A DNA stretch of 40,221 bases from Candidatus Aenigmatarchaeota archaeon (GTDB lineage: Archaea; Aenigmatarchaeota; Aenigmatarchaeia; QMZP01; QMZT01). The stretch spans positions 1 to 40,221 of the forward strand of contig QMZT01000005.1 in the NCBI GenBank assembly GCA_003663325.1. The letters are read 5' to 3'. Made by a program: the position numbers and the translations under genes. Shown piece after piece: positions 1 through 25,054 of the stretch. The notes beneath the pieces were generated by a model. That model was not told where the DNA came from, searched no databases, and saw only the letters and a program-made list of their open reading frames with translations. How positions within the stretch are numbered: the stretch's first letter is position 1; each line of letters opens with the position of its first letter.

Positions 1-3000
1 CAAACCAATGCTGACAAGCTCAAGTTCTATTTCGATAGCATACAGCAAACATTAGGATTTAATGGTAATATACCAAACAAGACCGCATATCTTCCTTCAT
101 ATCCTGTTCAAATTGGCAAGATGAATTATTATTTCTCCGGTATTATAGACCAAGTCCTAATCTATAATCGCTCCCTGAAGCCTTATGAGGTTAATGCTCA
201 TTATCTGGCAGCCATATCTAATAGGAGCAATTATGTTTATGCTTGGCTTTCTCCTGTCTTGGATGGTGGCAAACAAACAGCTGACTGGAAGGAGGTAAGC
301 TGGGAGCAAGAAATACCGGCAGGCACAAACATAACTGTACAATTCAGGGCTGGCAATAGCTCTAGCTATAATGCAAGCACATGGACAGATTGGAGCATAG
401 AATATAACACCAGCTCGGGTGTGGATATAAACTCAAGCTTCGATTACCGCTACCTTCAGCTTAAATTCAATTTCTATACCTATAGCCCAAACGTAACCCC
501 CGTATTGAAGAGCTTCACCGTTAACTATTCCATGGAAAAGGTACAAACAAACAATCTTGGCTGGCTACAATTTGCTATAAACGACACCTCTTTGCCGCAT
601 ACTTTTGAATGGGAATCACAAAATCTTAGCGGTGTGCTCAGAGTAAGGGCTTTGCAAATTATAGACCTCAGACCATTTGGCTTGCCAATAATTGATAATG
701 TAACAACAGCCAACCTTTCAATGAGCATAGCCATTAACGCTTCAACCTTGCAAGGAAGCTTAACCAATAGAAACATTAGCAGGGTTTGGGTTAATATAAC
801 AAAGCCCTCTGGAACGTGGGAAAATGTAACGCTAAGCGGGCCAGAAACGGGAGGAAAGTGGCAAGCAAGCTATGTTCCAGACCTACTCGGCCCCTATACA
901 ACCAAGTTCTATTGGGAAAGCACCGCTGGCGATACAGCAATCTTGAGAATGGGAGAATTTGAGGTAAGAACACTACTAATTGGTATAAGCTCGCCAGATA
1001 ATAAAGGCTATGATAAAATCGTCTTTGAGCCGGGAGACAAGTTTAATGTCACAGCATGCATTAAAGAATTCAATGGTAGCCATTACTTCAACGTTACCTC
1101 TGGCAACTTTGATATAAAAATAAGCACAGATAGCGGTTACGTTTATGGCAATCTAACATATGTTGATGGTTGCGAGTGGCGTGCCAATTTCACAGCTCCA
1201 ATGACAATAGGAACATATACAATCTATATAAACGGGACAAGCTATTTGGAAGGCATATACGGGAGCAATCAAACAAATTATCATGTGAATCAGAAACCAC
1301 TTTATCGAGAAGAAACAGTAACGGTAGAACCTGATATAAGCTACTACTACGATAACTTCACATTTAATATTTCAGTTAAAGATAATGAATGGAATGATGT
1401 AAATGTTACCCTCTTCGTCTCAACCGATAATAAAACAACATGGCAGTATAAAGGCTCAGTTCTTGTTACAGCTCCGGGAACATATAAAACAGCATCCATA
1501 ACAACGACATTCGCATATACAGATGTTGGAAGCGATAACTACTATAAATTCCAACTAGATGACAGCTATTTCAGAGTTAACACCACAGAATATGAGGGGC
1601 CAAGTGAGATAAGGAGCCAGATTGTTATAAACCTAACACAAGACCACTATTACATATACAGAAACGATAGCTTTAGCCCATACAACGTAACCTTTAACAT
1701 AAAGACAACGGATGCAAGCGATAACCTATTGGAAGGGATAAATGTAACCCTTTACAGAAACTCAACCTTCATAGGTAATTGCACAACGAATGCAAGTGGT
1801 GAGTGCAGGATAACCTATAATCCAGAATACTATCTAAGCGTTGGCAACTATAGCATATTGGCAAATGCAAGCGGCGCAGGCTATGATTACAGCACCACAA
1901 CATCTTGGCTTATACTAAATGGCAAGCTATACCCACAGATAGATAGTCCAGCAGCTAATAGTGTGTTGCTGAGAGGGGCAAGCTATAACTTCAACTCAAC
2001 AACAACAGATGATAATGGCACGTATCTAAGCGTTAACATAGACTGGCATCTTTTGAATTCTAGCTTGCAAACTGTAGATAGCTTTGGCCAAAACCAAGAA
2101 GACCTAATTTATACATTCGCAAGCAATCTAACTGCTGGCACCTACTATATAAAGATAAACGTAAGCAAGCCTTTCTATGATAATGCCCAACATAACATAT
2201 CAATAACAATAAAGTATAGGAGCGCTGTGAACATAACCCAAGGCCCAAGCCAAATATACAGAGGTAATAGCGGGGATTATTATGCAAGAGTATACGATTT
2301 TGATAACGATACGGTATTGCCAAGCTACACAGTAAGCTGGTACGTTGATAGCCAGTTTAAGCAATTCATCTTGACCGGGCCTACTGGCTATTCTATCTAC
2401 ACCTTCGATACAACAGGCTACAGCTTGGGTATGCATGAAATAAAGGCGGAGATAGGAAGCAAAGGTGATTATATACCATGGATAAACTCAAGCAATATTA
2501 GTATGGAAGTAAGAGGGATTCTGTACATAAACATCACCAGCCCAGGAGAGAATCAAATAGCTAACAGAGGGAGCTTTGTACAGCTAAACTCAAGCGTTTG
2601 GGATGATACCAACAATGAGCCAACAAATGCGTACAATGTTAGCTGGCTGTTAAATGGTATGCAAATACTAAACCAGCAAAACGGAAGCTACCAGATTCCA
2701 TGGACAAACCCAATAGGCTTAAATAATCTTAGTGCAACAGCTTATGGCAATTATTACGATAATGGCACAGATAGTATATTAATAAAGGTGTTTGGCTACT
2801 CAGAGCTTTATAACATAACCACAGATAAAACCATATATTTGAGCGGAGAGCCAATAATGGCTAATTGTTCTGTTAGAGATTCCAACACATCCATAGCCAT
2901 AGCAAACTATCCTGTTAAATTCTACTTTAACTATAGCTATCAAGGCACCAATTTAACCAATAGCTATGGAATAGCATTCTTTGAAATAAACACAAGTGGA

Positions 3001-6000
3001 GCAAACGCAGGCTTTTACAATATATCCTGCGAGCTAGAAGATAACGCTTCCCTCTTCTATAATGTGTCCAGAGGTTGGATTGATAGAGAGATAGAGATAC
3101 GAAGGTTGTTGGTAATAAAAAATGTTACAGCCCAGCCAGCAATTATTTACAGAAATAGCAGCGCATCGCCGCATGAAGCCAATATAAGTGTGGAGGTATG
3201 GGATGGCGCCATCAAGCCTATGCCTAACGCTATTGCTCATTTTTACCTACCAAATGGCTATGAGAATTGTACTACAAGCAGTAATGGTATATGCTCGATC
3301 TTGTGGGACCCACCAGATAACTATCTGCAAGCTAACTACACAATCTTCGTTAATGCAACAAAGCCTGGCTCAAACCCTAGCAGCACGGAAAATATAAGCG
3401 TGGAGGTTGTTACCAACCCAGTGCTTGAGCTAAATACCACAACCTTGTTATTCACACCAGCAAAGATGGGAGAAAACTCAACCCGTGGCCAAGTCTTTGT
3501 AATATTCTCCTTGGGTGATACCAACCTAACAAATATATCAATCTCATGCATCTCCGGCATAATATGTCAAAACTTCACAATAAGCCTTTCCAACAATAAC
3601 TTTGATTTAGAGATGGGCAAGAACAAAACAATAGAAATCAATCTGAGCGTGCCAGCTAACTTCAACAATTTCGGCGACTTTGATGGCATCCTAAGAATAA
3701 GGGCAGCCAATGTTAATAGAATAAATACTACCAAAACCACCAAGTTCATCAACATGAGTATACATGTATTTAAAGAAGAGACCATGCTAAGGCAAGAGCC
3801 CCAATCAATCACCGTGGGCAATATACAAGGCGATGTTATAACAAAGGTAATAAATCTAACGCTGGAAAACAAAGGCAGCGATAATATAACCCAAATTAAT
3901 TTAACACTGAGGTTTAACACAAGCTTCTATGGCTGCATAGACACATTAACATGCAATGATATGATTATTTACCCAAGCTATCAAAACTGCTCTCTCATAG
4001 AGCCCAATACTACTTGCAACAAAACATTCTACATAAACATATCTGCAACCACCGAGCCGTATGATTTTTACAAGATTGTTGGTAAGGCAAGCTATATAAA
4101 TCTTGATAATAGCTATGGTAGTGCTAAGAACATCACAAATCTGGATGTTAATCCAACATATGCCCTAAAGATAGCCCCAGACCAATTCTCTGGCGTGGTA
4201 AACCATGGTCAATCAAAGCAGATAGGTGTAATGAATATCTCCAATACAGGCAATACCGTTATTAGTAACGTTAATTTAATACCTTACGGAGGCAATTTAA
4301 CAGCAAGCTGGCTAACAATAACCCCTGACCATTATGCAGGCATAGATAAAGGTGCAACGAAACACTCAACCATAACCGTATCACTGCCTGCTGGCACTGC
4401 GCCGGGCAAATATTGGACATACATTAATGTTACATCCGACCAGGCAGAAACAAAGCAGGCTATGGTAAACATTACCGTGCCAATAGATTACTCTTGGAGC
4501 ATAAACCCGAGCTATACAGAGCGCAGTGTATGGGTTGATCTTCCCGGCACTTTCAATCTAACAATTAGCAATGAGGGGAATGTTAATCAAAGCTTTAGCT
4601 TAAGTTGTGCATCCCAAAACTCCTCCATACTAACGATAACGGGCTATCCGCAGGAGGTTAATGTAAGTAAGCAAGCAAGCGAGAACGCAAGCATCAATTA
4701 CTTTGCTGCAAGCTCTGGGAACACGATACTCCAATGTACAGTAACAAATAAGCAAAATAATGAGCAAAAAACAGCAACCTTTAACGTTACCGTTATCGAT
4801 ATTGCCCCCATATTATATGAACCGCCAGCATGGTATCAATACAGGGATATTAACTATGAATCCCAAGTAATAGAGATAAACATCTCCGACAATCACCAAT
4901 TACAGGATAATTGGGCATGGATAAATGTAACGGGGACTGAGGAGAAAGTTATTAACATGAGCATAAAGCAAACCCTTGGCAGCAATCCGCCAAACTACAC
5001 CTTTACTGGCAACTTCACCCCAACCATGGCTGGCTTGTACTATTTTGTTATATACGCAAAGGATGATGCAGGCTACACAAACCATACCGCACAATACCAA
5101 TTCTATGCTATACAATCAACAGACATGGAGATAGCAACAAACACATCCAGAGCAATAGCAGGAGTAACGCTAACTAATGGCAAGTGTTTTGATCAGGCAA
5201 TAAATATAACAAATCTTGGCAGTGGCGCCACAGGATATGGAGGAGCCTACTATACCAATCTAAGCATAACAAACCTTCCATCAGGATGGAGCGCAGACCC
5301 ACCCTTAGTTAGTTATGGAAAGGTTAAAGGAGGCGAAACAAAGAGCACAACAATACAAATATGTGTTCCCGCAGCAACACCAGCCGGCAGTTACTCTTTT
5401 GTTGTTAGGGTGGATTGGATAAATCCAAACAACTATGCAAGCTATAAGAGCGAGATAGTTGATGTTGATGTTTTACCAACGCCGCAATTAGAAGTTAGCA
5501 GTGTGCCACCAATAGATAACTTCACGCATGGCACCACAAGAGAAGCCAGCTACGTGTTATCCAATACGGGTAATGTAAAGGTTAATAACATCACGTTATA
5601 CAGGGCAGACAGCTTAACAATAAATACTACTATAGCTCCAGATTTCATCACAGCTTTATCTATGGGAGAAAGCAGCACAATATACGTAAACATTACCGTG
5701 CCTTTGGGCTTTTCCCCCGGTCCTTACCAAATTAAAATAAACCATGAGGGTGTAGAGGCAAGCGTGTTGCAAACAATATTCTTAACCGTTTTGGAAAGCA
5801 AGGAATGGAATATAAGCACAACAAAAATCTCAAAGCTTGTTGCTAGCAATACCTCTGGCAAGTTTGCTGAGATAAACCTAACAAATAACGGTAATGTGCA
5901 GCTAGACTTTAGCCTAAACATAACGGGCAACATCTCCAGCTACCTATCTTACCCAACATCGCTATCTGTTCAAAAACAGAGCACAGAGTTAATAGTTATA

Positions 6001-9000
6001 AACTTCTCATCACCTGCAACAAAGACAGATTATATGGGCAACCTGACTATTTCTTCACCAGGAGCAAACCCGGAGAATATGAGCATAGCACTAACCATGG
6101 GTGTCAGACCTTTAGAAATAGACCTTAAAAGCTACACAAACGAAACAAATGCCAGCGAGCCTATAAGCCTTGTTGTAAATCTAACCTATGATAATAAACC
6201 TGTTGATACCTCCAACTGGAATATAAAGGTGGGTGGGAAGGCATGCACCGAGCTTAATGCAAGCTATAATAGCAAGCTGTGGTACATAGCTTGCATTGCC
6301 CCCGAGCTAAAAGATGGCTATTACTATGATTTGGAGCTAAGAGCAGCAGCAATAGTTAACGGCAGCAATATAGAAGGCTTAGCCAATTATCCAAAAGCCA
6401 TTTACTATTATGACATCTCCCCGCCAGTCATAGAATCTATCTTGGCTGAGGAAAAAGAAGTTGCAAATGAGACAGCCAAAGCAAACCAAACAATAATTGC
6501 TAACATTACCGATGCAACAAAGGTAGCAAGTGCAGACATAGTAGTGGAGAAAGAAGGTAGTGTTGTTTATTCTGGTCCCATGACAAATATCTCAGGAAAT
6601 ACATATAGTGTAAATATAACTAACCTGGGCATAGGGGATTACGATTTCAGCATAACAGCAAGTGATGGCAAGTATGCAAACTCCACCAAGGGTTGGTTTG
6701 AGGTTTACATAGGTAATGTATACTTTACTGGCAATGCTAATGATGCTGCAGGCAATCCGTATACAACACAATTCAAATTCTACAGGCCAGGGAAGAACTT
6801 TTCTGCAAGCTATGAAATAAAAACTATAAGCTTCTCCGCTCAAGGATCATATAACAAAAAGGTGCATAAGAGGGTGTGTGACCTTATTGTTACAGGGTTT
6901 AATCACATAATAAAAATGAGGAACGTTAATATCGCTGATAGTGTAACAGAACCGTTAAGAATGGATGATATTGAAAAGCCTTTAGAGGATGGCGTGGAGA
7001 AGGCAAGCTATGCCGCAGAGCACGGAATAATATACTTCAAAAAGGTGCTGGGCATAGTAAGCAACCTAAACTTCTCATACGCTGAGCTGATCTTAAATAC
7101 AGGCAGCTATGATCCTAACACGCTCCTTGTTTATAAATGTGCTGACTGGAGCTTTAGCGAGAGGGAATGCGATGGGCAATGGACCGAGGTTACAGGCTTA
7201 GAAAGGGGCGCAAATACGATAAGCTTTACAATAACCTCCTTCTCCGCCTATGCTTTGGTTACGATAGAGTGTGGACTTGGGTATGTAACCTGTGGCAATA
7301 TATGCTATAGGCAGGAGGTGTGCCCATACTGCTGCAATGGTGTTTGTTCAAATACATCATGCACTGTGACCGGGACGGGGGCAGTAACAGGCGGCGGAGG
7401 CGGCGGAGGCGGTGGTTATATAGAACGGGTGGAAGAGAAAAAGGCCGTTTGTGGCAATGGGGTGTGCGAAGCCACGGAGAGCTGGGAGAACTGCCCAGAG
7501 GATTGCGAGCCGCCACTACCACCAAGCTCCGTTAGCTCTAATATAGTGGATGTTAAACTATATCCTGGGGAAAGCAAGACATATTCGATATGGATCACAA
7601 ATAATATGAACAGCTACCAGACAGCCACGTTATCTGTAAGGGGACCTGTATGGGAATTTGTGAGACTTGAAAAGGAAAGGATAAACGTAGCGCCGCTCTC
7701 AACGCGAACAGTAAAGGTTAAGTTTGTCACTGATACAACAACACAGCCAGGGGTATATACGGGAGATATATTGATAGCTATAGGTAACAAAACCCATACA
7801 CTTCCTGTAACATTAACCGTGCTACCGGAGCAGTACGCATTGTTGGATGTAAAGGTAGAGGCCTTAACAAAATACATCCTGCCTAGGGATGCTTTAAGGT
7901 TTTACGTATCCCTTTACAATCTTGGAATAAAGAAAAGGTTTGATGTTACACTCGACTACCAAATCAAAGAAATGGAGACAGAAAAAACAATAACGCATAA
8001 AATGGAAACAATGGCCATAGAAACCTCTCTATCCTTCGTAAAGATGTACGATCTAAGCAATATATCACTAACACCAGGAAAGTATTACATTACCGTTGTT
8101 GCTATGTATGAAAACAAAACAGCATCCTCTGCCGATATGTTTGAGGTTATTACGCCGCCATGGTGGTACAAGTACATACCATGGATAATAGCTGGCATAG
8201 TAGCGATAGCTGTTTTGATATATGTATACAAGTGGCACAAGAAAAAGGTGCTTGAAAGGCTTAGATACCTTACCCCGGTAGATTACAAAACCCTGCCAAC
8301 GGGAGGGTTGAGGATAGGGAAGATAGCAGAGACAGACAGAAAGGCATACCTAAGCAAGGATGATTTGGTTACGCACGTCATTACAGCCGGTGCTACGGGC
8401 TCTGGTAAGACAGTCTCGGCAATGGTTATTGTAGAAGAATGCCTGCTGCAAAAGATACCCGTAATAGTGTTTGATCCAACAGGACAATGGACAGGATTTG
8501 TAAAGCCGTGCCGTGATAGCAGGATGCTTTCAAAGTACCCTGAGTTTGGCTTGAAGGAAATACACGCAAGGAGCTTCCCGGGTATGATATACGAGGTTAC
8601 AGATCCAAATGTTAAGATAGACCTAAGGAAGTATATGAACCCGGGAGAGATAACAATATTTACCCTGAACAAGCTAAAACCAGGTGAGTATGATATTGCC
8701 GTCAAGAATATAATAGATTTGATATTTGAGCAGGGATGGGAAGAAAGCCCAACATTAAGAATGCTGATCGTTTTTGATGAAGTACACAGGCTGCTAGAGA
8801 GGTATGGTGGTAAAGGCGGGTACATAGTCTTGGAAAAGGCTGCCAGAGAATTCAGGAAGTGGGGTATCGGCTTAATAATGATATCCCAAGTGCTGAGCGA
8901 CTTCAAAGAAGCTCTTAAGGGTAACGTTCTAACAGAGATACAGCTAAATACAAAGCTATTGAACGATATAAAGAGGGCAAAGGAGAAGTATGGGGAGGAG

Positions 9001-9324
9001 TATGCAAAAAGGATAACGAGAGAGGAGGTTGGTGTTGGTATGATCCAGAATCCAAGGTATAACAGAGGTAAGCCCTATTGGGTAGCCTTTAGACCACTAC
9101 TGCACAGCCCGCACAAGATACCTAACAAGGAGTTAGAATTGTACAAGAGGTATGCAAAGGAGCTGGAGGAAATAGAGAAGGGGATAGAGAAAAGAAAGAA
9201 AGCTGGCAAAGAGGTATTTGACCTTGAGCTAGAATTCAGACTGGCAAGCCAGAAACTAAAGGCAGGGAAATTCAGGGTTGTGGATATATACATCCAATCC
9301 TTAAAGGCAAGACTAAAAGAATAG
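1..9324 (+). CDS. Giant surface protein (5' end outside window): LamG-like N-terminal fragment, many Ig/NEW3-like extracellular repeats rich in N-X-S/T, Cys-rich module, poly-Gly linker, one TM helix, C-terminal HerA/DUF87-like ATPase domain
   Basis: The frame of the 3067-aa ORF is open from base 1 (QTNADKLKFYFDSI...), so 121 is not the true start. LamG-like motif FSGIIDQVLIYNRSLKPYEV. TM WIIAGIVAIAVLIYVY near 8176-8230. Walker A GATGSGKT at 8389-8412 and Walker B MLIVFDEVH at 8761-8787. Confidence 0.88.
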   Translation, partial: QTNADKLKFYFDSIQQTLGFNGNIPNKTAYLPSYPVQIGKMNYYFSGIIDQVLIYNRSLKPYEVNAHYLAAISNRSNYVYAWLSPVLDGGKQTADWKEVSWEQEIPAGTNITVQFRAGNSSSYNASTWTDWSIEYNTSSGVDINSSFDYRYLQLKFNFYTYSPNVTPVLKSFTVNYSMEKVQTNNLGWLQFAINDTSLPHTFEWESQNLSGVLRVRALQIIDLRPFGLPIIDNVTTANLSMSIAINASTLQGSLTNRNISRVWVNITKPSGTWENVTLSGPETGGKWQASYVPDLLGPYTTKFYWESTAGDTAILRMGEFEVRTLLIGISSPDNKGYDKIVFEPGDKFNVTACIKEFNGSHYFNVTSGNFDIKISTDSGYVYGNLTYVDGCEWRANFTAPMTIGTYTIYINGTSYLEGIYGSNQTNYHVNQKPLYREETVTVEPDISYYYDNFTFNISVKDNEWNDVNVTLFVSTDNKTTWQYKGSVLVTAPGTYKTASITTTFAYTDVGSDNYYKFQLDDSYFRVNTTEYEGPSEIRSQIVINLTQDHYYIYRNDSFSPYNVTFNIKTTDASDNLLEGINVTLYRNSTFIGNCTTNASGECRITYNPEYYLSVGNYSILANASGAGYDYSTTTSWLILNGKLYPQIDSPAANSVLLRGASYNFNSTTTDDNGTYLSVNIDWHLLNSSLQTVDSFGQNQEDLIYTFASNLTAGTYYIKINVSKPFYDNAQHNISITIKYRSAVNITQGPSQIYRGNSGDYYARVYDFDNDTVLPSYTVSWYVDSQFKQFILTGPTGYSIYTFDTTGYSLGMHEIKAEIGSKGDYIPWINSSNISMEVRGILYINITSPGENQIANRGSFVQLNSSVWDDTNNEPTNAYNVSWLLNGMQILNQQNGSYQIPWTNPIGLNNLSATAYGNYYDNGTDSILIKVFGYSELYNITTDKTIYLSGEPIMANCSVRDSNTSIAIANYPVKFYFNYSYQGTNLTNSYGIAFFEINTSGANAGFYNISCELEDNASLFYNVSRGWIDREIEIRRLLVIKNVTAQPAIIYRNSSASPHEANISVEVWDGAIKPMPNAIAHFYLPNGYENCTTSSNGICSILWDPPDNYLQANYTIFVNATKPGSNPSSTENISVEVVTNPVLELNTTTLLFTPAKMGENSTRGQVFVIFSLGDTNLTNISISCISGIICQNFTISLSNNNFDLEMGKNKTIEINLSVPANFNNFGDFDGILRIRAANVNRINTTKTTKFINMSIHVFKEETMLRQEPQSITVGNIQGDVITKVINLTLENKGSDNITQINLTLRFNTSFYGCIDTLTCNDMIIYPSYQNCSLIEPNTTCNKTFYINISATTEPYDFYKIVGKASYINLDNSYGSAKNITNLDVNPTYALKIAPDQFSGVVNHGQSKQIGVMNISNTGNTVISNVNLIPYGGNLTASWLTITPDHYAGIDKGATKHSTITVSLPAGTAPGKYWTYINVTSDQAETKQAMVNITVPIDYSWSINPSYTERSVWVDLPGTFNLTISNEGNVNQSFSLSCASQNSSILTITGYPQEVNVSKQASENASINYFAASSGNTILQCTVTNKQNNEQKTATFNVTVIDIAPILYEPPAWYQYRDINYESQVIEINISDNHQLQDNWAWINVTGTEEKVINMSIKQTLGSNPPNYTFTGNFTPTMAGLYYFVIYAKDDAGYTNHTAQYQFYAIQSTDMEIATNTSRAIAGVTLTNGKCFDQAINITNLGSGATGYGGAYYTNLSITNLPSGWSADPPLVSYGKVKGGETKSTTIQICVPAATPAGSYSFVVRVDWINPNNYASYKSEIVDVDVLPTPQLEVSSVPPIDNFTHGTTREASYVLSNTGNVKVNNITLYRADSLTINTTIAPDFITALSMGESSTIYVNITVPLGFSPGPYQIKINHEGVEASVLQTIFLTVLESKEWNISTTKISKLVASNTSGKFAEINLTNNGNVQLDFSLNITGNISSYLSYPTSLSVQKQSTELIVINFSSPATKTDYMGNLTISSPGANPENMSIALTMGVRPLEIDLKSYTNETNASEPISLVVNLTYDNKPVDTSNWNIKVGGKACTELNASYNSKLWYIACIAPELKDGYYYDLELRAAAIVNGSNIEGLANYPKAIYYYDISPPVIESILAEEKEVANETAKANQTIIANITDATKVASADIVVEKEGSVVYSGPMTNISGNTYSVNITNLGIGDYDFSITASDGKYANSTKGWFEVYIGNVYFTGNANDAAGNPYTTQFKFYRPGKNFSASYEIKTISFSAQGSYNKKVHKRVCDLIVTGFNHIIKMRNVNIADSVTEPLRMDDIEKPLEDGVEKASYAAEHGIIYFKKVLGIVSNLNFSYAELILNTGSYDPNTLLVYKCADWSFSERECDGQWTEVTGLERGANTISFTITSFSAYALVTIECGLGYVTCGNICYRQEVCPYCCNGVCSNTSCTVTGTGAVTGGGGGGGGGYIERVEEKKAVCGNGVCEATESWENCPEDCEPPLPPSSVSSNIVDVKLYPGESKTYSIWITNNMNSYQTATLSVRGPVWEFVRLEKERINVAPLSTRTVKVKFVTDTTTQPGVYTGDILIAIGNKTHTLPVTLTVLPEQYALLDVKVEALTKYILPRDALRFYVSLYNLGIKKRFDVTLDYQIKEMETEKTITHKMETMAIETSLSFVKMYDLSNISLTPGKYYITVVAMYENKTASSADMFEVITPPWWYKYIPWIIAGIVAIAVLIYVYKWHKKKVLERLRYLTPVDYKTLPTGGLRIGKIAETDRKAYLSKDDLVTHVITAGATGSGKTVSAMVIVEECLLQKIPVIVFDPTGQWTGFVKPCRDSRMLSKYPEFGLKEIHARSFPGMIYEVTDPNVKIDLRKYMNPGEITIFTLNKLKPGEYDIAVKNIIDLIFEQGWEESPTLRMLIVFDEVHRLLERYGGKGGYIVLEKAAREFRKWGIGLIMISQVLSDFKEALKGNVLTEIQLNTKLLNDIKRAKEKYGEEYAKRITREEVGVGMIQNPRYNRGKPYWVAFRPLLHSPHKIPNKELELYKRYAKELEEIEKGIEKRKKAGKEVFDLELEFRLASQKLKAGKFRVVDIYIQSLKARLKE

Positions 9325-9333
9325 CCAAATAGT

Positions 9334-9858
9334 TTAGGTTTTCCATACCGTAAGCCTAAGCCTCACTATCTTTCCTTCGTATATACAATACCTCTCATTC
9401 ACAGCAACATAGCTTGCATTATTTGGCTTTTGACCTGCAACAATATCATAGCCCGTCTCGTTCTTTACTATAGAGGAATTTAGATACGTTAGCTCTATAT
9501 AAGCCTCATAGTTACCTGTACCCAAAGCTTTTTTTAGCTCATCATAGCCCATGCTCATCATCTCATTAACCTTTCCCCTATCCAATATATTCTCCTCCCT
9601 TGCCAGCCCTATAACCTCAACATTGCTCCTATTCCATTCAGCTGGGATGCCTGGTCTTCTCACGAGATAGTCCGATATAGACAATGCAAGCATATTCATT
9701 TCATATATCTGCTTGTTTGTGTTATAATCCTCTCCCACCCTGCTTATTGCGAAGAATACAAAAACAAATATCAGCAAAAACATGGTTATGGAAAACGCTA
9801 TATCCATAGACCATAACTGGCCACGCAGCCCCGAGCCCGGACCATTTTTATTGCCCAT
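9334..9858 (-). CDS. Pilin/pseudopilin-like protein with one N-terminal hydrophobic helix
   Basis: 174 aa; N-terminus GLRGQLWSMDIAFSITMFLLIFVFVFFAISRV followed by a soluble domain; clustered with two similar ORFs. Confidence 0.6.
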   Translation of the reverse strand: MGNKNGPGSGLRGQLWSMDIAFSITMFLLIFVFVFFAISRVGEDYNTNKQIYEMNMLALSISDYLVRRPGIPAEWNRSNVEVIGLAREENILDRGKVNEMMSMGYDELKKALGTGNYEAYIELTYLNSSIVKNETGYDIVAGQKPNNASYVAVNERYCIYEGKIVRLRLTVWKT

Positions 9859-9868
9859 ATCATCATCA

Positions 9869-10267
9869 TTAGCTATTTATCACAATACTACCATTAACAT
9901 TTTTTATAACATTCAGCCCCCTTTTAATATTTCCTGTTATATTTTTCACTGCCACACTTTTCATATATATACGCTGGGATATGTTAAGGATGATCAAACC
10001 ATCCTCAAGCTTGACAGAGTAATCCATACTATTTATCTTTTCTGGAACGCTAAGCATTATTGCAAACCCATCCCCTTCAATATACGCTATTTCTATAGCA
10101 TCTTTGATGTTTGCAAGCACACCGCCTGCCTCTGTCTCAATCTTTAAATCCCTTATTTCATTGATCTTATTCCATGAAAAAAAGAGGGCAACTATTATCA
10201 CTATTATTAACACAGCAAGGACAAGCATGAATTCAATAGCGGCTTGGCTAATACGATATCTGGACAT
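9869..10267 (-). CDS. Archaeal type IV pilin-like protein (class III signal peptide-like)
   Basis: MSRYRISQAAIEFMLVLAVLIIVIIVALFF; Q-A-A-I-E-F motif before a hydrophobic helix; start trimmed from ORF 9869-10285. Confidence 0.65.
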   Translation of the reverse strand: MSRYRISQAAIEFMLVLAVLIIVIIVALFFSWNKINEIRDLKIETEAGGVLANIKDAIEIAYIEGDGFAIMLSVPEKINSMDYSVKLEDGLIILNISQRIYMKSVAVKNITGNIKRGLNVIKNVNGSIVINS

Positions 10268-10649
10268 AGCTACCATTACACACAACCTTTACTTCATACA
10301 ACCCTTCGTTAGATGGTAAGGTGCCGCTAACGTTAGCCTGCGTCATTGCAATTACATTATTTATGCTGCTTTTATAAAGTACATCCAGCCTTATTGTGTT
10401 ATTTCCTACAGAGCCCCCCACAACCCCGCTTGGTATATAAAGCTTAATTGTTACACTTGCACCGCTGCCTTGGGAATATACAAAATCGGCAGCTTCCGCA
10501 AGCTTATCAACAGCAAGCTTTGCATAGGAAAGGTCAAGCTGATTGCTGGCTTCATTCCTCATTACCGTTACATAAATCCAGAGAGGAGCTATAAATGTCA
10601 GCACAAGCCCGATTATCAGCAAATACTCCATAGCAACCTGTAACTTCAT
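10248..10649 (-). CDS. Archaeal type IV pilin-like protein (class III signal peptide-like)
   Basis: MKLQVAMEYLLIIGLVLTFIAPLWIYVTV; Q-x-A-M-E-Y-L-L-I motif; start trimmed from 10703, which would overlap rtcA. Confidence 0.65.
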   Translation of the reverse strand: MKLQVAMEYLLIIGLVLTFIAPLWIYVTVMRNEASNQLDLSYAKLAVDKLAEAADFVYSQGSGASVTIKLYIPSGVVGGSVGNNTIRLDVLYKSSINNVIAMTQANVSGTLPSNEGLYEVKVVCNGSYVQISY

Positions 10650-10680
10650 ACTTATATTTTTGATAATATTCTTTAATAAT

Positions 10681-11724
10681 ATGATGAAGGAGACCATATC
10701 CATAGACGGAAGCTATGGAGAGGGTGGAGGTCAGATATTGAGAACTGCTTGTGCTCTTTCTGTTATAACAGCCAAGCCTGTAAGGATATTCAATATACGA
10801 GCAAATAGACCAAATCCTGGACTAAGAACACAACATATTAAGGTTATAGAATCACTTGCCCATATCTCATGCGGAAGATATGAAGGGGTAAAGCTTGGTT
10901 CCAAAGAGGTTTGGTTCTTTCCAGGAGAGGGTATAAGGGATAAGGTTAAGGTTAAGATAGAGACTGCAGGCTCAGCTGGGCTTGTACTTGAGAGCTTATT
11001 AATTGCTGCTATGAGGTGCAGGAAAAGGATAAGTTTGGAGATAGATGGTGGTGCAACCTTTGGTGCATTTGCCCCGCCCTTGCCTTACATACAGTACGTA
11101 ATACTTCCCATTCTCAGAAAAATGGGATACCATGCAGAAATAAACATAATAAGACATGGTTTTTATCCCGCAGGCGGCGCAAAGGTAAAAGCTACAATTA
11201 TCCCGCCAAAAGCCCTTGCTCCTGTAAGCTTTGAAAACCCATTTTCCGCGAAGCTCGTAAATATACTATCTGTTGCAAGCAAACACCTGAAAAAGGCAAA
11301 GGTTGCAGAAAGGCAGGCAAGGAGTGCAGAAAAACTGCTCAATGAATACGGCTGCGGGGTAGAGATAAAAACAATGTATGCAGACAGCATAAGCGTGGGA
11401 AGCGGGATAGTGCTAAGCAGTAAAACATTTAGTGGAAGCGTGGTGGGAAGTGATTCACTGGGAGAAAAAGGTAAGCTAGCTGAAGAGGTTGGTTACGAGG
11501 CTGCCCAAGGCTTGCTTGCTTGCCTGGATAAGGCAACACTGGATATACATGCCGCAGACCAAATACTACCATTCATTTCTTTCGCCAAAGGCACGTCAAT
11601 ATTCACAACACCAGAGCTGAGTATGCATGCAAAAACAAATATATGGGTCATAGAAAGGTTTCTGGGGAAATTATTCGCAATAAAACACAAAAACAATGTA
11701 TTTGTGGTGGAATGCAAACCCTAG
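10681..11724 (+). CDS. rtcA: RNA 3'-terminal phosphate cyclase
   Basis: ISIDGSYGEGGGQILRTACALS N-terminus; GGATFGAFAPPLPYIQYVILPIL; C-terminal MHAKTNIWVIERFLG. Confidence 0.93.
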   Translation: MMKETISIDGSYGEGGGQILRTACALSVITAKPVRIFNIRANRPNPGLRTQHIKVIESLAHISCGRYEGVKLGSKEVWFFPGEGIRDKVKVKIETAGSAGLVLESLLIAAMRCRKRISLEIDGGATFGAFAPPLPYIQYVILPILRKMGYHAEINIIRHGFYPAGGAKVKATIIPPKALAPVSFENPFSAKLVNILSVASKHLKKAKVAERQARSAEKLLNEYGCGVEIKTMYADSISVGSGIVLSSKTFSGSVVGSDSLGEKGKLAEEVGYEAAQGLLACLDKATLDIHAADQILPFISFAKGTSIFTTPELSMHAKTNIWVIERFLGKLFAIKHKNNVFVVECKP

Positions 11725-18126: not shown

Positions 18127-19308
18127 ATGGAAATATTGAATATCCTTAATCCCTGGTGGGAAAAGGATGGATGGGAAAGGGAAGATAAGCATTTGAGGGA
18201 GCTTAGTCTTATGAAGGTTCGATGGATCCCAAAATGGCTAAATAAGCTGTCCTTTAAACCCTTCTCCCTCAATTTTTTAGTTGGACCCAGACAGATAGGA
18301 AAAACAACAGGTATGAAACTTTTGATTAAACAACTTACAACAAGGGTAAATAAATACGCAGTTTTCTATTTGGATATTGAGATTTTAAGGGATTTGGAAG
18401 AACTAAGAGAGGTTATTCTTTTCTACCAAAAAATAAAAAAGGAAAACAGAATAAAACATGCCTATATTTTTCTTGACGAAGTCACATCCTTGAAAGAGTG
18501 GTGGAGGATCATTAAAGGTTTTATAGATTCTGGTGTTTTAAACAGAGACGTCATAACAGTTTCTGGTTCCTCAACCTTGAACATCCTCAAACAGAGAGAA
18601 GCGTTTCCTGGGAGAAGGGGTTTTGGAAAAGATATCGAAGCGTTACCATTATCTTTTCCAGAATTTTTAGAAATAAAAGGTGTGGATATTTCTAAGAAGT
18701 CTACTTTCAAGCATAAGATTCATAATTTGTTTTCAGAGTATTTGGAGGTTGGCGGGTATCCTAAAAGTATTAACAAAATTAATTTTTTTCCAGATCTTAT
18801 AAGAAGTATAGAAAGTGAAATAGAAAAAACTGGAAAAAGCCCAGAAACCTTAAAACAAATTATATCCATGCTTTATGATATGGTTCCAAGTGCAATGTCA
18901 TACAATACGATAGGAAGCAAGATAGGAATTTCTCATAAAACCGTAGAAAGCTATATTGAAGATTTACAAAACCTCTTTGCTTTAAAAATAGTTTATCACA
19001 AAGATAAAAGGGTCAACTTTAGGAAGGAAAAGAAAATATTGATCAGGGACCCATATTTAGCAAGGTCATTGGCCATCTGGTGCAATCGTGAATTAAGAAA
19101 AGATTTCCTCTTCGAATCTATTGTTCAAGAGCACCTCTATCGGAAGTTTGGAGAAATTTATTACTTCCGAAATTCATACGAAATAGACTGCATCGCTGGG
19201 GATATGAAGGTGGAGGTAAAAGCTGGTAAACCGCACAGGAAATATCCAAAAAATGTTTTAGTATTAGAAGAAAAGGAAATCCCAGAGTTTTTAATAAGCC
19301 TTAAATAA
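18127..19308 (+). CDS. COG1373-like AAA+ ATPase (DUF4143-type)
   Basis: LVGPRQIGKTTGMKLLIKQL Walker A; HAYIFLDEVTSLKEWWRIIKGFIDSG Walker B; SGSSTLNI; C-terminal EIDCIAGDMKVEVKAG nuclease-like motif. Confidence 0.88.
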   Translation: MEILNILNPWWEKDGWEREDKHLRELSLMKVRWIPKWLNKLSFKPFSLNFLVGPRQIGKTTGMKLLIKQLTTRVNKYAVFYLDIEILRDLEELREVILFYQKIKKENRIKHAYIFLDEVTSLKEWWRIIKGFIDSGVLNRDVITVSGSSTLNILKQREAFPGRRGFGKDIEALPLSFPEFLEIKGVDISKKSTFKHKIHNLFSEYLEVGGYPKSINKINFFPDLIRSIESEIEKTGKSPETLKQIISMLYDMVPSAMSYNTIGSKIGISHKTVESYIEDLQNLFALKIVYHKDKRVNFRKEKKILIRDPYLARSLAIWCNRELRKDFLFESIVQEHLYRKFGEIYYFRNSYEIDCIAGDMKVEVKAGKPHRKYPKNVLVLEEKEIPEFLISLK

Positions 19309-19369: not shown

Positions 19370-22300
19370 ATGAGGATTTTGGTTTTCATTTTGGCAATAT
19401 TAATTGTGTTGCCCACACCTTTGTTTGCCATGCAAATAAATCCACGGGTTCACGGTGATATTATAAAAATACTTCCATTTAAAGATTTCTATATAATTGC
19501 AAGCAGCAATGGTATTTTCGTTTTTAATAAAAACGGCAAGCTAATAAATTTTGTCGATATAAAGGATGTCTCGGATATAGGGATAAGCGATAGCATGCTT
19601 ATTGTAACAACCCATACCCAGCTAGTTCCAAACGTTCTCGCGTACAGCCTTTATGATCTAAACAAGCTATGGGAATTTGAGCCGAAGATGGAGGTTTTTG
19701 ATGAGTATCTGGTATGGGATGAGAAAGAGACAAGAAGCTGGTGTGTAAAGATATTCGGCAAAGATATTGGTATATGTTCTGGGCATACCTTTTATCTAAT
19801 GGATAAAAATGGGCACGTAGTGCGTAGCTTTAGAGCAGAGAATGATGTATGGGATGCTGAGAAGCTTGGTGATGAGTATTACCTTGCAACACAGGATGGC
19901 GATGTGTATATTTTGGATAGCAATCTAAAATTTAAATCAAAGATAAATGTTGTCAAGGAGTTCAAGCTTATTGATCCTGTGACAAATACAACGAGAGCTA
20001 GATTCAAAAGATCTACGTGGCAAACCCTTAGCTATAATGATGGTATAGCGGCTGCTTGTGAAGATGGACGTGTGGTGTTTTTGGAGAATAGCAGGGTTAA
20101 ATGGGACAGCGTGGTTGAGGAACAGAGCAAGAGCTTGCTTTATATGTACTATCAGGAGATAGACAGAGAGACGGGGTTTGGGGATAGAAATTTCAGGAAT
20201 GTAAAGATAATAAAGGCTGAAGATGGCATCGTGGTGTATACAAAAAACAAGATAGCATTGCTAAGGGATGGTGATATAGTATGGGAAAGAGATGTTAATC
20301 TTGAGCTTGCTAAAAACCTTTGCATTCATAATAACTTACTCTATGTACCTCAAAAACCAAAAAAGAGTGAAAGTATAGCGATCTATTGGGTACAGAATGG
20401 GAGCAAAAAGGGAACCATATTTATAGAGAATCCCGTGCAGGAGATTGAAAGCTATTATCTTTTCTGCGGGAAAGATGGGATTATTTTAGCCTCAGATAAT
20501 GAGATAAAATATCTTAGCTATAGGGAGGATGTTAAATGGTATTTCCCGAGGGCAAGGGAGTATGATGAGATTATAGACGGAGATATGATATTTCTTGTAC
20601 CAAAGATGAGAAGGAGCGAGGAGCCCCTTGATCCGTGGATAGCATATTTCATTATAGCCATGGATAAAGATGGGAACATAGTATGGGAATATACCCTGCC
20701 CTATGAGAAGAGGAAGAAAGGTGGTATAGCGGATATAGAGGTTTCGAAAAATTTTATAGCCCTGGCATATATAAGGAGTTCAGAAAAAGGCTACGATGAA
20801 CTCATAGTTTTAAACAGAACGAACGGTAGGGTTATTTATGAAGGCAATGTAACGAAAAGGGTTTATGCTGGCATACTTGATAAGTACCTTCTTAATAAAA
20901 CCCTTATGAGAATAGTAAGGAGCTTTGATTTTAGCGTGCTTGATAACATCCTATCAGAAATAAAGGAAGGAAGGATAGAGGATGCGATAAATATGTATGG
21001 AGAAGAGGAGGTAATGAGATGGATGAGCATGCTGGAAAAGCTTCCTTTAGATATAGAACTGCTTGAGAAGCTTAGAGGTATTGATTTTAAACGCATACAC
21101 GAGTATATGCTAAGAAAGAATATAAGGGATATAAGCGTGGGTGATATGAATGCCGATGGTGTTGCAGATATAATAGTCTCTGCCCGAGATTTCATGCTGG
21201 TTCTGGATGGAAGGAATTTAAAGGAAATAATGTTTAAAGACCCTAGGCGATGGAGATATAACGATATTGAGATAAACAGACCATTTGCGAGGAACTTTAC
21301 GGCAAACTGGTACGAAGAGGATGATACAATTGTTGTTCCTATAAATGATTTTAACAATGACAGCAAGCCAGAGCTTTTTGTTTATAAGCATGATAGATAC
21401 GGCCTGGTTGAGAGCTTTGGCAGGGATTACAGAAAGGTTTGGATGGAGAAGGGAATAGAGAATATAATTAGCGAAAGGACAAGGGTGGTGGAGGATATGG
21501 ATGGTGATGGCATGCAAGAGTTCATGATCTCCAGATGGAGGAAAAATCAGCCTGATATAATAGAAATAATAAGCATAAAAAGTAGAAGGAGGCTTGCAAG
21601 TATTGAAGGAAGCAAAGTACATATAAAATTTAACGCAGGGGATGTGGACGGGGATGGTAAGAATGAAAGCTTAGCGTTTTTTGATATGGAAGGAGGGATG
21701 GTAAAGATATTTAGTCCCACAAAAGTGATATGGGAGTACAAATACGTAGATGATTTCTGGGATGTGTGGAGAAGCTACGGGTACCTTTTCCCTATAGAGG
21801 TTGTAAGAGATGTGAATGGTGATGGGGTCAGGGATGTTGCAATTGGGTTGGTAAGGAGATGGGATAGTGGTGCTAAGATAATCTTTTTCGATGCAAAACA
21901 GAAAAACGTGATAAAAGAGGTGGAGATAGAAAAAAGCAAGAGATATGATGACGGGGATTGGACCTATGTAAATGAGATAGTAGCAAATGGTAATCTATTA
22001 GCTATAGCACTACCTGCGATTAACGGGAAATCTGGCAAGGTGATCATATATGATATGGAAAATGACAAGATAGTTGGCATAGTTCATGAAAGTGTTAGAA
22101 GGATTTTGAGACTTGGGAGCGGGTTTTTATTCATGAGGAATGATGGTGGGCTTGTACCGTTTGATGTGCCTGAGCCCATTGAGGTAAGTATTAAGACAGA
22201 GGGTAATAAAGCTCACATAGAATGGGATAGAGAGGGATATGCAAAGGTTTATGTTGATGGCGCGCTTGCTGGCAGGAGAAGGGGCAGAGGGATGGATATT

Positions 22301-22477
22301 GTATTGGATAATGGGGAGCATGAGATAACAGTAAGTGTACTTAGCAAGGGGTATGAAAACTTTGCAACAACCAAAGCTAAGATATTTGTTCCATCAAGCC
22401 TATCAACACTTAATATAGTGCTTGTACTAATCATAGCTACTCTGGTGGTGGTAAAGGTATGGGCAATGAAGAGATAG
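19370..22477 (+). CDS. Secreted, membrane-anchored beta-propeller protein with FG-GAP/EF-hand-like repeats and C-terminal TM helix
   Basis: Signal peptide MRILVFILAILIVLPTPLFA; Ca-binding-like repeats DMNADGVADIIVSA, DMDGDGMQEFMIS, DVDGDGKNESLAF, DVNGDGVRDVAIGL; C-terminal TLNIVLVLIIATLVVVKVW. Confidence 0.75.
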   Translation: MRILVFILAILIVLPTPLFAMQINPRVHGDIIKILPFKDFYIIASSNGIFVFNKNGKLINFVDIKDVSDIGISDSMLIVTTHTQLVPNVLAYSLYDLNKLWEFEPKMEVFDEYLVWDEKETRSWCVKIFGKDIGICSGHTFYLMDKNGHVVRSFRAENDVWDAEKLGDEYYLATQDGDVYILDSNLKFKSKINVVKEFKLIDPVTNTTRARFKRSTWQTLSYNDGIAAACEDGRVVFLENSRVKWDSVVEEQSKSLLYMYYQEIDRETGFGDRNFRNVKIIKAEDGIVVYTKNKIALLRDGDIVWERDVNLELAKNLCIHNNLLYVPQKPKKSESIAIYWVQNGSKKGTIFIENPVQEIESYYLFCGKDGIILASDNEIKYLSYREDVKWYFPRAREYDEIIDGDMIFLVPKMRRSEEPLDPWIAYFIIAMDKDGNIVWEYTLPYEKRKKGGIADIEVSKNFIALAYIRSSEKGYDELIVLNRTNGRVIYEGNVTKRVYAGILDKYLLNKTLMRIVRSFDFSVLDNILSEIKEGRIEDAINMYGEEEVMRWMSMLEKLPLDIELLEKLRGIDFKRIHEYMLRKNIRDISVGDMNADGVADIIVSARDFMLVLDGRNLKEIMFKDPRRWRYNDIEINRPFARNFTANWYEEDDTIVVPINDFNNDSKPELFVYKHDRYGLVESFGRDYRKVWMEKGIENIISERTRVVEDMDGDGMQEFMISRWRKNQPDIIEIISIKSRRRLASIEGSKVHIKFNAGDVDGDGKNESLAFFDMEGGMVKIFSPTKVIWEYKYVDDFWDVWRSYGYLFPIEVVRDVNGDGVRDVAIGLVRRWDSGAKIIFFDAKQKNVIKEVEIEKSKRYDDGDWTYVNEIVANGNLLAIALPAINGKSGKVIIYDMENDKIVGIVHESVRRILRLGSGFLFMRNDGGLVPFDVPEPIEVSIKTEGNKAHIEWDREGYAKVYVDGALAGRRRGRGMDIVLDNGEHEITVSVLSKGYENFATTKAKIFVPSSLSTLNIVLVLIIATLVVVKVWAMKR

Positions 22478-23400
22478 CAATAAAAACGGAAGGGTTGAGA
22501 AAGGTTTTTGGTAGATTCAGGAAAAGGATAGTAGCTGTTAAAGAGCTGAATATGGAGATAGAGAGGTCAACAATCCACGGATTTATTGGTCCTAATGGAG
22601 CTGGAAAAACAACAACAATAAAGATGCTTGTTGGTGCTATAAGGCCAACGAAAGGCAAAGCCTTTATATTTGATGAGCCCGTTGGAAGTGTAAAGGCAAA
22701 ACGTTATATAGGCTACTCCCCAGAGCATCCAAACTTTTACCCAATGAGTGCCATAGACTTCCTTATCTACATGGGTAGGATTTCGGGTATGAAAAGAGAA
22801 GAGGCGAGAAAAAGAGCAAAAGAGCTCATGGAATGGATAGGGCTGGAGGGCTTTGAGAATAAAAATGCACAGCGTTTTAGTGCCGGTATGAAACAGAAAC
22901 TTAGCATAGTGCAGGCATTGATCCATGACCCAGATATACTAATCCTGGATGAGCCTACAGCAAACCTTGACCCCATAGGCAGGTTTGAGGTTATAGGAAA
23001 GATAGGGGAGCTTGCGAGAAAGGAAAGGAAGACGGTATTCATAAGTAGTCATATACTTTATGAGCTGGAGAAGATAGTAGACCACGTTACTATAATAAAG
23101 CGTGGCAATGTCTTGCTTCAGAGTAGTATCGCATCCCTCAGGAAAAGATTTTCGGAGAATCATTTTATAATAGATACCTCCTCAAACAAGCAATTTATAA
23201 AAAGGCTGGAAGGTATTGGTAACGTAAAGAAGGTATGGATAAACCATGAAGGTAAAATAGAGGTTAATGTCTCCAACGGGGAAAGATTTAAGAAAGAGCT
23301 GATCGATTTAGTAAAAAATAGCAACATTATTATGAATGAATTCTCGCCTTACAAAATGTCACTAGAAAACATATTTATAAAGCTCGTGGAGAGTGAGTAG
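22459..23400 (+). CDS. ABC transporter ATP-binding protein
   Basis: GFIGPNGAGKTTTIKML Walker A; RFSAGMKQKLSIVQALIHDPDILILDEPTANLDP signature and Walker B; overlaps the preceding CDS. Confidence 0.95.
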   Translation: MGNEEIAIKTEGLRKVFGRFRKRIVAVKELNMEIERSTIHGFIGPNGAGKTTTIKMLVGAIRPTKGKAFIFDEPVGSVKAKRYIGYSPEHPNFYPMSAIDFLIYMGRISGMKREEARKRAKELMEWIGLEGFENKNAQRFSAGMKQKLSIVQALIHDPDILILDEPTANLDPIGRFEVIGKIGELARKERKTVFISSHILYELEKIVDHVTIIKRGNVLLQSSIASLRKRFSENHFIIDTSSNKQFIKRLEGIGNVKKVWINHEGKIEVNVSNGERFKKELIDLVKNSNIIMNEFSPYKMSLENIFIKLVESE

Positions 23401-24340
23401 TATGTCTGGTATTTATGTTGTATTTGAGAAGGCTCTGAAGGACAATTTAAAAATAAAGTATCTTGCAATATACATTGCCATAGCATTATTGCCATTTCTT
23501 ATGTTTGCAAATCTTTCTGAAGAAGCCAAGCTTTTCTCCACTCTGAATGTTGAGTTAAGAGCAGAGTATATTGCAGGCTTTTATACAATTTTCTCATTTT
23601 TTTGGTTAGCAGGCATTGCTTTAGCTGTGCTTGCTGTCTTTATTTGCTCAGGATTTGTTGCAGATGAGCTTGCCAATAGGACACTTTTGCTCATGTCAAG
23701 TAAGCCTATAAAGCGCACGCATTTCATACTGGCTAAATTTGCAGCCTTTTTCATAACAGCCTTGCTTTTTGCATTTCTCTCGTTCTTCTTTTCCATATAC
23801 CTTTGGGCCTCGCTCTTTAATTTAGATATTTTTTCATTCTCAAAATTCCTACCATTTATATTACCATTACTCTTCTACTCCGTCTTTGTTATACTCGTTT
23901 TTGGCTCCCTTGCCACCGCGCTATCTACAATATTCTCCACCAGAATGAAAGCCTTACTACCATTGATTGCAATAATCATGCTTGCATTCTTTGCATTCAT
24001 CCCAATAAGAAGCGCTGCTCAATCGCTTGGAGTCTATAATAAGTACTACCTGGATATGCTGGATTTGGGCTACGATCTGGGCAATATTTACATAAACATG
24101 CTAGATAGCTATGGAATAAAGCTCATACCACCAATGCAATCTGTAATGGGCACATTTACAGGCGTATATAAGATTCCAAGGCATGGTCTAAGGATTGATT
24201 ACGATCATGGCATAATATTGAGAGAGCTGGAAAAAACAAGGTATCACAGCCTTAAGCATTCAATGGTCAAATGGCTTATAGCTCCAGCAATCCTGCTCTT
24301 GATTGGCATATTTTTATTCAATAGGAAGGATGTACATTAA
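23393..24340 (+). CDS. ABC-2 type transporter permease
   Basis: About six hydrophobic segments; FVADELANRTLLLMSSKPIKRTHFILAKFAAFFITALLFAFLSFFF; overlaps the ATP-binding subunit by 8 nt. Confidence 0.88.
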   Translation: MSSMSGIYVVFEKALKDNLKIKYLAIYIAIALLPFLMFANLSEEAKLFSTLNVELRAEYIAGFYTIFSFFWLAGIALAVLAVFICSGFVADELANRTLLLMSSKPIKRTHFILAKFAAFFITALLFAFLSFFFSIYLWASLFNLDIFSFSKFLPFILPLLFYSVFVILVFGSLATALSTIFSTRMKALLPLIAIIMLAFFAFIPIRSAAQSLGVYNKYYLDMLDLGYDLGNIYINMLDSYGIKLIPPMQSVMGTFTGVYKIPRHGLRIDYDHGIILRELEKTRYHSLKHSMVKWLIAPAILLLIGIFLFNRKDVH

Positions 24341-24380: not shown

Positions 24381-24671
24381 ATGCTTAGAGTTCATAAAGA
24401 GATTATTAACGAGTTTAGAAGGCTTAAGGATGCAAAGATAGTGATATTTGGGTCCGTGGCCAGGGGTAATTACGGGCTTGATTCTGACATAGATATAGCT
24501 ATAATAAGTAATAATGATGTTAGGGAGAGAGCAAGAAAAATCGCTGATAGTATATTTGCCAAGTATGGTAAACTAGTTTCACTTAAATTTCTAAATGAAG
24601 AAGAATTTAAAAAAGGTAAAAGTCCTTTAGTGAAAGAAATAAGGAGAGGAATTATATGGAAGACGAGATGA
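24381..24671 (+). CDS. Minimal nucleotidyltransferase (MNT) domain protein
   Basis: IVIFGSVARGNYGLDSDIDIAII: GSx10DxD nucleotidyltransferase motif; 96 aa. Confidence 0.88.
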   Translation: MLRVHKEIINEFRRLKDAKIVIFGSVARGNYGLDSDIDIAIISNNDVRERARKIADSIFAKYGKLVSLKFLNEEEFKKGKSPLVKEIRRGIIWKTR

Positions 24672-25054
24672 AAGAGCTAATAAAGGAGGAGTTAAAGACA
24701 GCAAAGAGGAGGTTGGATGCAGCCAAGCTTTTATTTAGAAATAATATGCTTGAGGATGCGATAAGCAGGGTTTATTACGCCGTATTTTATGCTGCAAAAG
24801 CTATGCTTAACTCTGCTGGCTATGATGCAAAGACACATAAAGGGCTTATTTCGGAGTTTGGGCTAAGGTTTGTTAAAGAAGGTATTGTACCAAAAAGGTA
24901 CGGAGGTGTATTAAGACGTATTTTTGAGGCTAGAGAAAGTAGCGATTATGAAATTTATGCCATTTTCGAGAACACAGAGGTTAAAGAACTTTTAAAGCAG
25001 GCAGAAGATTTTATAAATATGGCGGAAAAGTTTGTTAGGGAAAGAATTTCATAA
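24656..25054 (+). CDS. HEPN domain protein (MNT partner)
   Basis: AKRRLDAAKLLFRNNMLEDAISRVYYAVFYAAKAMLNSAGYDAKTHKGLISEFG...EARESSDYEIYA; overlaps the MNT gene. Confidence 0.87.
   Translation: MEDEMKELIKEELKTAKRRLDAAKLLFRNNMLEDAISRVYYAVFYAAKAMLNSAGYDAKTHKGLISEFGLRFVKEGIVPKRYGGVLRRIFEARESSDYEIYAIFENTEVKELLKQAEDFINMAEKFVRERIS

Follow-up and report, generated by a model that had tools for sequence, protein, structure and literature searches.

The first gene of the 40,221-nucleotide stretch of DNA analysed here (the window) very probably encodes a giant surface protein of the SPEARE type, an assignment for which the type proteins NAR1_1133 and SVXNc_0300 were compared by description. Its ectodomain is joined through a single transmembrane (TM) helix to a cytosolic ATPase whose sequence places it nearest HerA and CedD. 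SPEARE-type giants are widespread, and they almost always stand beside a previously undescribed partner gene encoding a coiled-coil protein. The giant protein is one of few conserved candidate machines by which DPANN archaea might attach to their hosts and trade material with these. Together, the partner gene, the affinity to HerA and the Ced system and the absence of the VirB4 N-terminal domain give the vague 'straw' idea the form of a testable two-component system.

The giant gene forms one open frame of 3107 codons (1..9324, + strand), in which about 201 stops would be expected in random sequence of equal composition. The source genome is a metagenome-assembled genome (MAG) of 735 kb that is 82% complete. 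Since the first base of the window is also that of contig C5, the 5′ end of the gene is cut by the contig edge and the N-terminus of the protein is missing; the first 400 bases match elsewhere in the genome over at most 28 bases, so that the missing part was not found on another contig. Contigs very often end inside giant genes, as at base 1 of the window and, for example, at L061 and L085-L089. Because contigs break in these genes, probably through repeats, the frame counts and lengths given below are underestimates.

A MAG contig that starts inside a gene invites the suspicion that two unrelated genes were fused during assembly. The probability of such an artefact is negligible, as dozens of assemblies made independently contain the identical join, in part on large contigs, and the complete relative L033 (1436 aa, with a signal-like N-terminus) shares 55% identity with the window protein over 1188 aligned positions. 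The alignment covers window residues 1924-3105 and crosses the join, spanning ectodomain, TM helix and ATPase. Misassembly was rejected on the strength of L033 and of the other relatives with the same join. The unbroken frame of more than 3100 codons, the fusion of ectodomain to ATPase, its topology and the HerA class of the ATPase, all part of the original prediction, are therefore borne out and conserved in relatives. That prediction had also named what would count against it, namely a frame misassembled or split in relatives, or an ATPase degenerate across homologues; neither holds, since relatives keep the frame unbroken and the catalytic lysine, aspartate, glutamate and arginine do not vary.

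The ectodomain (residues 1-2724; 1..8172, + strand) holds 133 N-X-S/T sequons in residues 1-2450, compared with 44.7 ± 5.9 in shuffled sequences, and is probably N-glycosylated. It had been described as thousands of residues of beta-rich, sequon-dense repeats. The sequon density holds, while 'repeats' is a loose term for what is a divergent string of Ig-like/NEW3 modules, few of which are recognised by Pfam (NPCBM_assoc, 4e-13). At the contig edge, residues 7-64 (19..192, + strand) resemble the C-terminal part of a LamG domain, with a Laminin_G_3 match over profile positions 93-150 of 151 at E=0.0012, under the curated cut-off. To judge from their sequence, the putative LamG and the Ig-like modules are of an adhesive type. 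The window protein yielded no protease or toxin domain.

Towards the membrane, sequence inspection revealed two Cys clusters (residues 2424-2454 and 2484-2502; 7270..7506, + strand) with a G9 tract between them at residue 2464 (7390-7416, + strand), and hence both the Cys module and the poly-Gly tract that had been predicted (residues 2424-2502). Two conserved juxtamembrane Ig-like domains follow, with approximate limits of 7522..8160 (+ strand), defined by alignment and by strands 24-231 of an AF2 model. Hydropathy identifies a single TM helix, as predicted, at residues 2725-2743 (8173..8229, + strand), preceded by more than 2700 residues and followed by a Lys/Arg-rich segment. Among 63 homologues the mean number of Lys and Arg residues is 5.0 after the helix versus 1.1 before it, and the ATPase is therefore cytosolic by the positive-inside rule. 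Complete relatives carry a signal-like hydrophobic segment at the N-terminus.

The cytosolic HerA-class (DUF87) ATPase domain has approximate limits of 8266..9105 (+ strand), set from Pfam, comparison of sequence and fold, and the AF2 model. DUF87 and HerA_C both score over the Pfam cut-offs, and both predicted motifs are present: Walker A (GATGSGKT) from residue 2797 (8389..8412, + strand; catalytic K2803 at 8407-8409) and Walker B (LIVFDEVH) from residue 2922 (8764..8787, + strand; catalytic E2927 at 8779-8781). In HerA, K154, D176, E356 and the arginine finger R381 are critical by mutagenesis (PMC4351679). They align with K2803, D2825, E2927 and R2952, none of which varies among 56 homologues; R381 was located in the HerA chain by counting along the alignment from E356. 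R2952, the counterpart of the trans-acting arginine finger, is encoded at 8854..8856 (+ strand). Also invariant or nearly so in the 56 aligned homologues are the Walker A core, DPT, DE-x-HRL, REFRKWG and SQV. The C-terminal part was modelled with AF2 (pLDDT 88), and the nearest solved proteins by both sequence and fold are HerA; the model ends in a helical tail (9124..9321, + strand; model helices 557-621). All 56 members match the NCBIfam model CedD, although the score, 46.6 bits, lies far under the equivalog cut-off of 600. The matches to the TraC, TraD and VirB4 models are weak, and sequence and fold alike are nearer HerA than VirB4. The ATPase should assemble as a hexamer via the trans-acting arginine.

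A search of related genomes for the same architecture found 84 further homologous genes, giving a non-redundant set of 85 with that of the window. The TM and ATPase unit occurs in 40 of 100 related genomes, mostly in frames of 2000 to 11262 codons or cut by contig ends. It is also present in 24 of the 34 genomes in the phylum to which a Ca. Nanohaloarchaea record belongs, where the longest frame has 12145 codons, and in 26 named contigs spanning several archaeal groups, with one match weak. The best named matches, to Ca. Aenigmatarchaeota MAGs, have 74% and 72% identity over the TM and ATPase. Ectodomain size ranges from almost nil to more than 11000 residues while the TM and ATPase stay constant, and ectodomain-poor copies include those of L059 (395 aa) and L039 (551 aa). 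At the other extreme, the frames in G127:C8 (12145 codons), G047:C2 (11262), G119:C54 (10914) and G102:C9 (10846) exceed the 9409-aa protein given as the largest in cultivated archaea (PMC10266531). ATPase genes are found as tandem copies at L055, L039 and L112, each with one coiled-coil partner gene after the last copy. The copy at L064 12068-13810 (G034:C1) has an in-frame TAG beside a masked stretch and is possibly decaying; the partner gene after it stays open. Outside DPANN, the protein was found in Ca. Hydrothermarchaeum profundi. This was rejected as proof of a general non-DPANN role, and the gene was probably acquired there, because only one of the 23 genomes of that phylum carries one.

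The partner gene lies on the same strand no more than 3 kb downstream in 75 of the 85 non-redundant genes, and within 200 nt in 68. Its product is a predicted cytosolic coiled-coil protein in which the motif E-x-IGELR(S/T) is conserved and whose structure is predicted, with moderate confidence, to be all helical. Pfam gave scattered coiled-coil matches, no single family being found in more than 10 of 37 members, and a fold search of the PDB gave no match at E<=0.001. Among 100 genomes, 37 have both ATPase and partner, 3 the ATPase only, 4 the partner only and 56 neither (p=2.4e-19, a value made optimistic by shared ancestry). The distance matrices of the two proteins are correlated (Mantel r 0.755, reached in 0 of 999 permutations), partly through ancestry. 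A giant ORF followed by a coiled-coil ORF can thus serve as a genomic signature for finding the system. A search of the open-licence literature for the pairing returned only PMC10266531, and the partner goes unmentioned in the available parts of that paper and of PMC6642349.

Further small genes accompany some of the loci. Immediately upstream of the giant gene, L050, L063, L066 and L067 have a gene for a small protein (~75-110 aa) with a TM segment and a coiled coil. In Ca. Hydrothermarchaeum profundi (L041, 11224-16568) the gene downstream of the giant encodes a small secreted protein with one TM segment that resembles the juxtamembrane domain; the coiled-coil partner comes next, then another coiled-coil gene and one for a CheR-like methyltransferase.

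The genome of the window, at 82% completeness, has no clear partner gene: weak matches of a kind typical of coiled coils were obtained (E 5.7e-4 and 5.2e-5), none passing 1e-12. It seems that this lineage has lost or moved the gene. In its place stand three pilin-like genes outside the module (9334..10703, - strand; 9334-9858, DUF7287; 9869-10285; 10248-10703), the nearest of them convergent and ending about 10 bases from the giant gene. Conserved synteny with pilins, another check proposed with the original prediction, did not emerge, since among the loci fetched homologues of the window pilins occur at L059 (G064) only. Pilin synteny was rejected as a general feature, the usual neighbour being the coiled-coil gene. 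G064, also an exception with regard to the partner, has, at L059 5861-11024 and 16746-17930 (G064:C53), two ATPase copies flanking an apparent type IV pilus cluster that includes homologues of two of the window pilins; its pilins were recognised by this homology and its PilB/TadC-like genes by eye. The second copy there, the 395-aa TM and ATPase protein without an ectodomain, adjoins a proteasome alpha gene.

Elsewhere in the window there are two AAA_14/DUF4143-type ATPases within the 40-kb stretch (18127-19308 and 26678-27880), an FG-GAP protein of 1035 aa that seems to end in a TM segment, with the ATPase and permease of an ABC transporter encoded after it (19370-24340), a nucleotidyltransferase and HEPN pair in the typical layout of an MNT/HEPN toxin-antitoxin system (24381-25054), and a 685-aa predicted secreted or membrane protein with a transglutaminase core (34666-36723).

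We tentatively favour a contact-dependent, membrane-anchored hexameric translocase with DNA as its likeliest cargo, an explanation that, taken whole, falls a little short of an even chance. The giant type I membrane protein would reach toward neighbouring cells with its LamG-like and Ig-like ectodomain, cross the membrane by its one TM helix and present a complete HerA-class ATPase in the cytosol. Protomers may come together at sites where the ectodomain has bound a partner cell, and their ATPases may close into a hexameric ring beneath the membrane through the trans-acting arginine, so that ATP hydrolysis could drive a polymer across the cell contact. In most relatives the downstream coiled-coil protein would serve as a scaffold or regulator. 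DNA is the likeliest cargo, since the nearest characterised motors, HerA and CedD, move DNA and nucleotide synthesis is missing from many host-dependent DPANN archaea; import is slightly favoured over export. A nutritional dependence on host nucleic acids has been argued for Ca. Nha. antarcticus (PMC6642349). A contact-dependent translocase with all cargoes taken together is about evenly balanced between true and false, and DNA as the cargo is less probable than that. Several observations weigh against the translocase. A hexamer with a single TM segment per subunit would have a thin pore, the HerA match is limited to the ATPase core, with neither a HAS barrel nor a NurA neighbour, the CedD score is far below its cut-off, ectodomain-poor copies exist and the window lacks a partner gene. 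The physical coupling of the two halves is uncertain as well: in the one proteome studied, that of Ca. Nha. antarcticus, the cytosolic peptides all came from below 315 kDa, in size fractions other than those with extracellular peptides (PMC6642349), and ectodomain and ATPase are thus possibly cleaved apart.

Alternatively, nothing would be moved into another cell, and the protein would be an adhesin whose ATPase acts on its own side of the membrane, where it exports, clusters, retracts or anchors the ectodomain or signals contact via the coiled-coil partner. The constancy of the TM and ATPase beneath ectodomains of every size fits such a role, as do the single TM segment, a commonest neighbour that is a cytosolic coiled-coil protein and not a channel protein, and the CheR-like gene near the giant gene in one relative (L041). 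Yet the invariant HerA-type catalytic residues, the trans-acting arginine among them, suggest a translocating ring, and we know of no precedent for a HerA-class ATPase as an adhesin regulator; we regard this reading as improbable, if worth keeping in view. Far less credible is a membrane-tethered DNA translocase for internal work of the FtsK kind (chromosome positioning, division or repair) that gained its adhesive ectodomain by fusion. FtsK, HerA and membrane-anchored translocases have a common fold, and DPANN genomes keep a separate HerA-like gene (on contig C11 in the source genome), so a second motor could be specialised. A core chromosome function is nevertheless at odds with the patchy spread over 40 of 100 relatives and with genomes that carry several copies, and the ectodomain, often enormous, is always on the same side.

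A type IV secretion ATPase resembling VirB4 is likewise unlikely, despite membership of the wide HerA/FtsK/VirB4 superfamily and the weak TraC, TraD and VirB4 matches. A further argument for it comes from two cultured nanohaloarchaea, in which a VirB4 gene with PF03135 lies downstream of the giant gene (PMC10266531). PF03135, the VirB4 N-terminal domain, is absent from the window protein and from all 100 related genomes (0/100, with a working control), no other VirB/Tra genes were found in the window, and the ATPase is closer to HerA. Contact-dependent transfer or secretion, as the original prediction put it, is a reasonable conjecture and not a new idea, host-interaction and secretion roles having been proposed earlier for this architecture (PMC6642349 and PMC10266531).

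Compared with HerA itself, the window protein has the same ATPase core by sequence and fold and keeps the four mutagenised catalytic residues. It differs in having no Pfam match to the HAS barrel, its ATPase being preceded by a TM helix instead, and in a shorter distance between the two Walker motifs, 123-128 residues across 63 sequences; there is no NurA among the annotated window genes. Ced ATPases work with CedA-type channels and, to our knowledge, lack a giant ectodomain. CedD, a TM segment plus a C-terminal HerA/VirB4-like ATPase like that of the window protein, is required for DNA import in Saccharolobus islandicus (PMC11868833).

The closest likeness is to the SPEARE proteins of Nanohaloarchaeota, described with the same layout by Hamm (2019; PMC6642349), who also noted similar cytosolic sequences in Woesearchaeota, Aenigmarchaeota, Micrarchaeota and Altiarchaeales and defined a SPEARE protein as having at least one laminin-G domain. 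The mention of Aenigmarchaeota there and the homologues in 24 of the 34 genomes noted above lend indirect support to homology with NAR1_1133 or SVXNc_0300. As in SPEARE proteins and in the giant membrane-anchored proteins SVXNc_0300 and BNXNv_0298 (PMC10266531), the window protein has a giant exterior with adhesive modules, one TM segment near the C-terminus and a conserved cytoplasmic C-terminal part that is an ATPase, here of the HerA class with invariant catalytic residues. N-terminal beta-propeller matches, as in SVXNc_0300, also occur in relatives found here. The window protein differs in being N-terminally incomplete and in showing no protease or toxin domain. Its ATPase is read here as HerA/CedD-like and not as restriction-like or, as in the 2023 rereading of the cytosolic part as a VirB4/TraG-like ATPase with proposed secretion straws (PMC10266531), as VirB4; most relatives have a coiled-coil neighbour, in contrast to the VirB4 gene of the two cultured strains. 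It is conceivable, though rather doubtful, that SPEARE giants and their partner form a distinct two-gene, contact-dependent machine of HerA/Ced type, separate from type IV secretion and spread as a unit among DPANN phyla and occasionally beyond. The architecture is already known in outline, Aenigmarchaeota included; what is new is the affinity to HerA and CedD, the absence of PF03135 and the partner gene.
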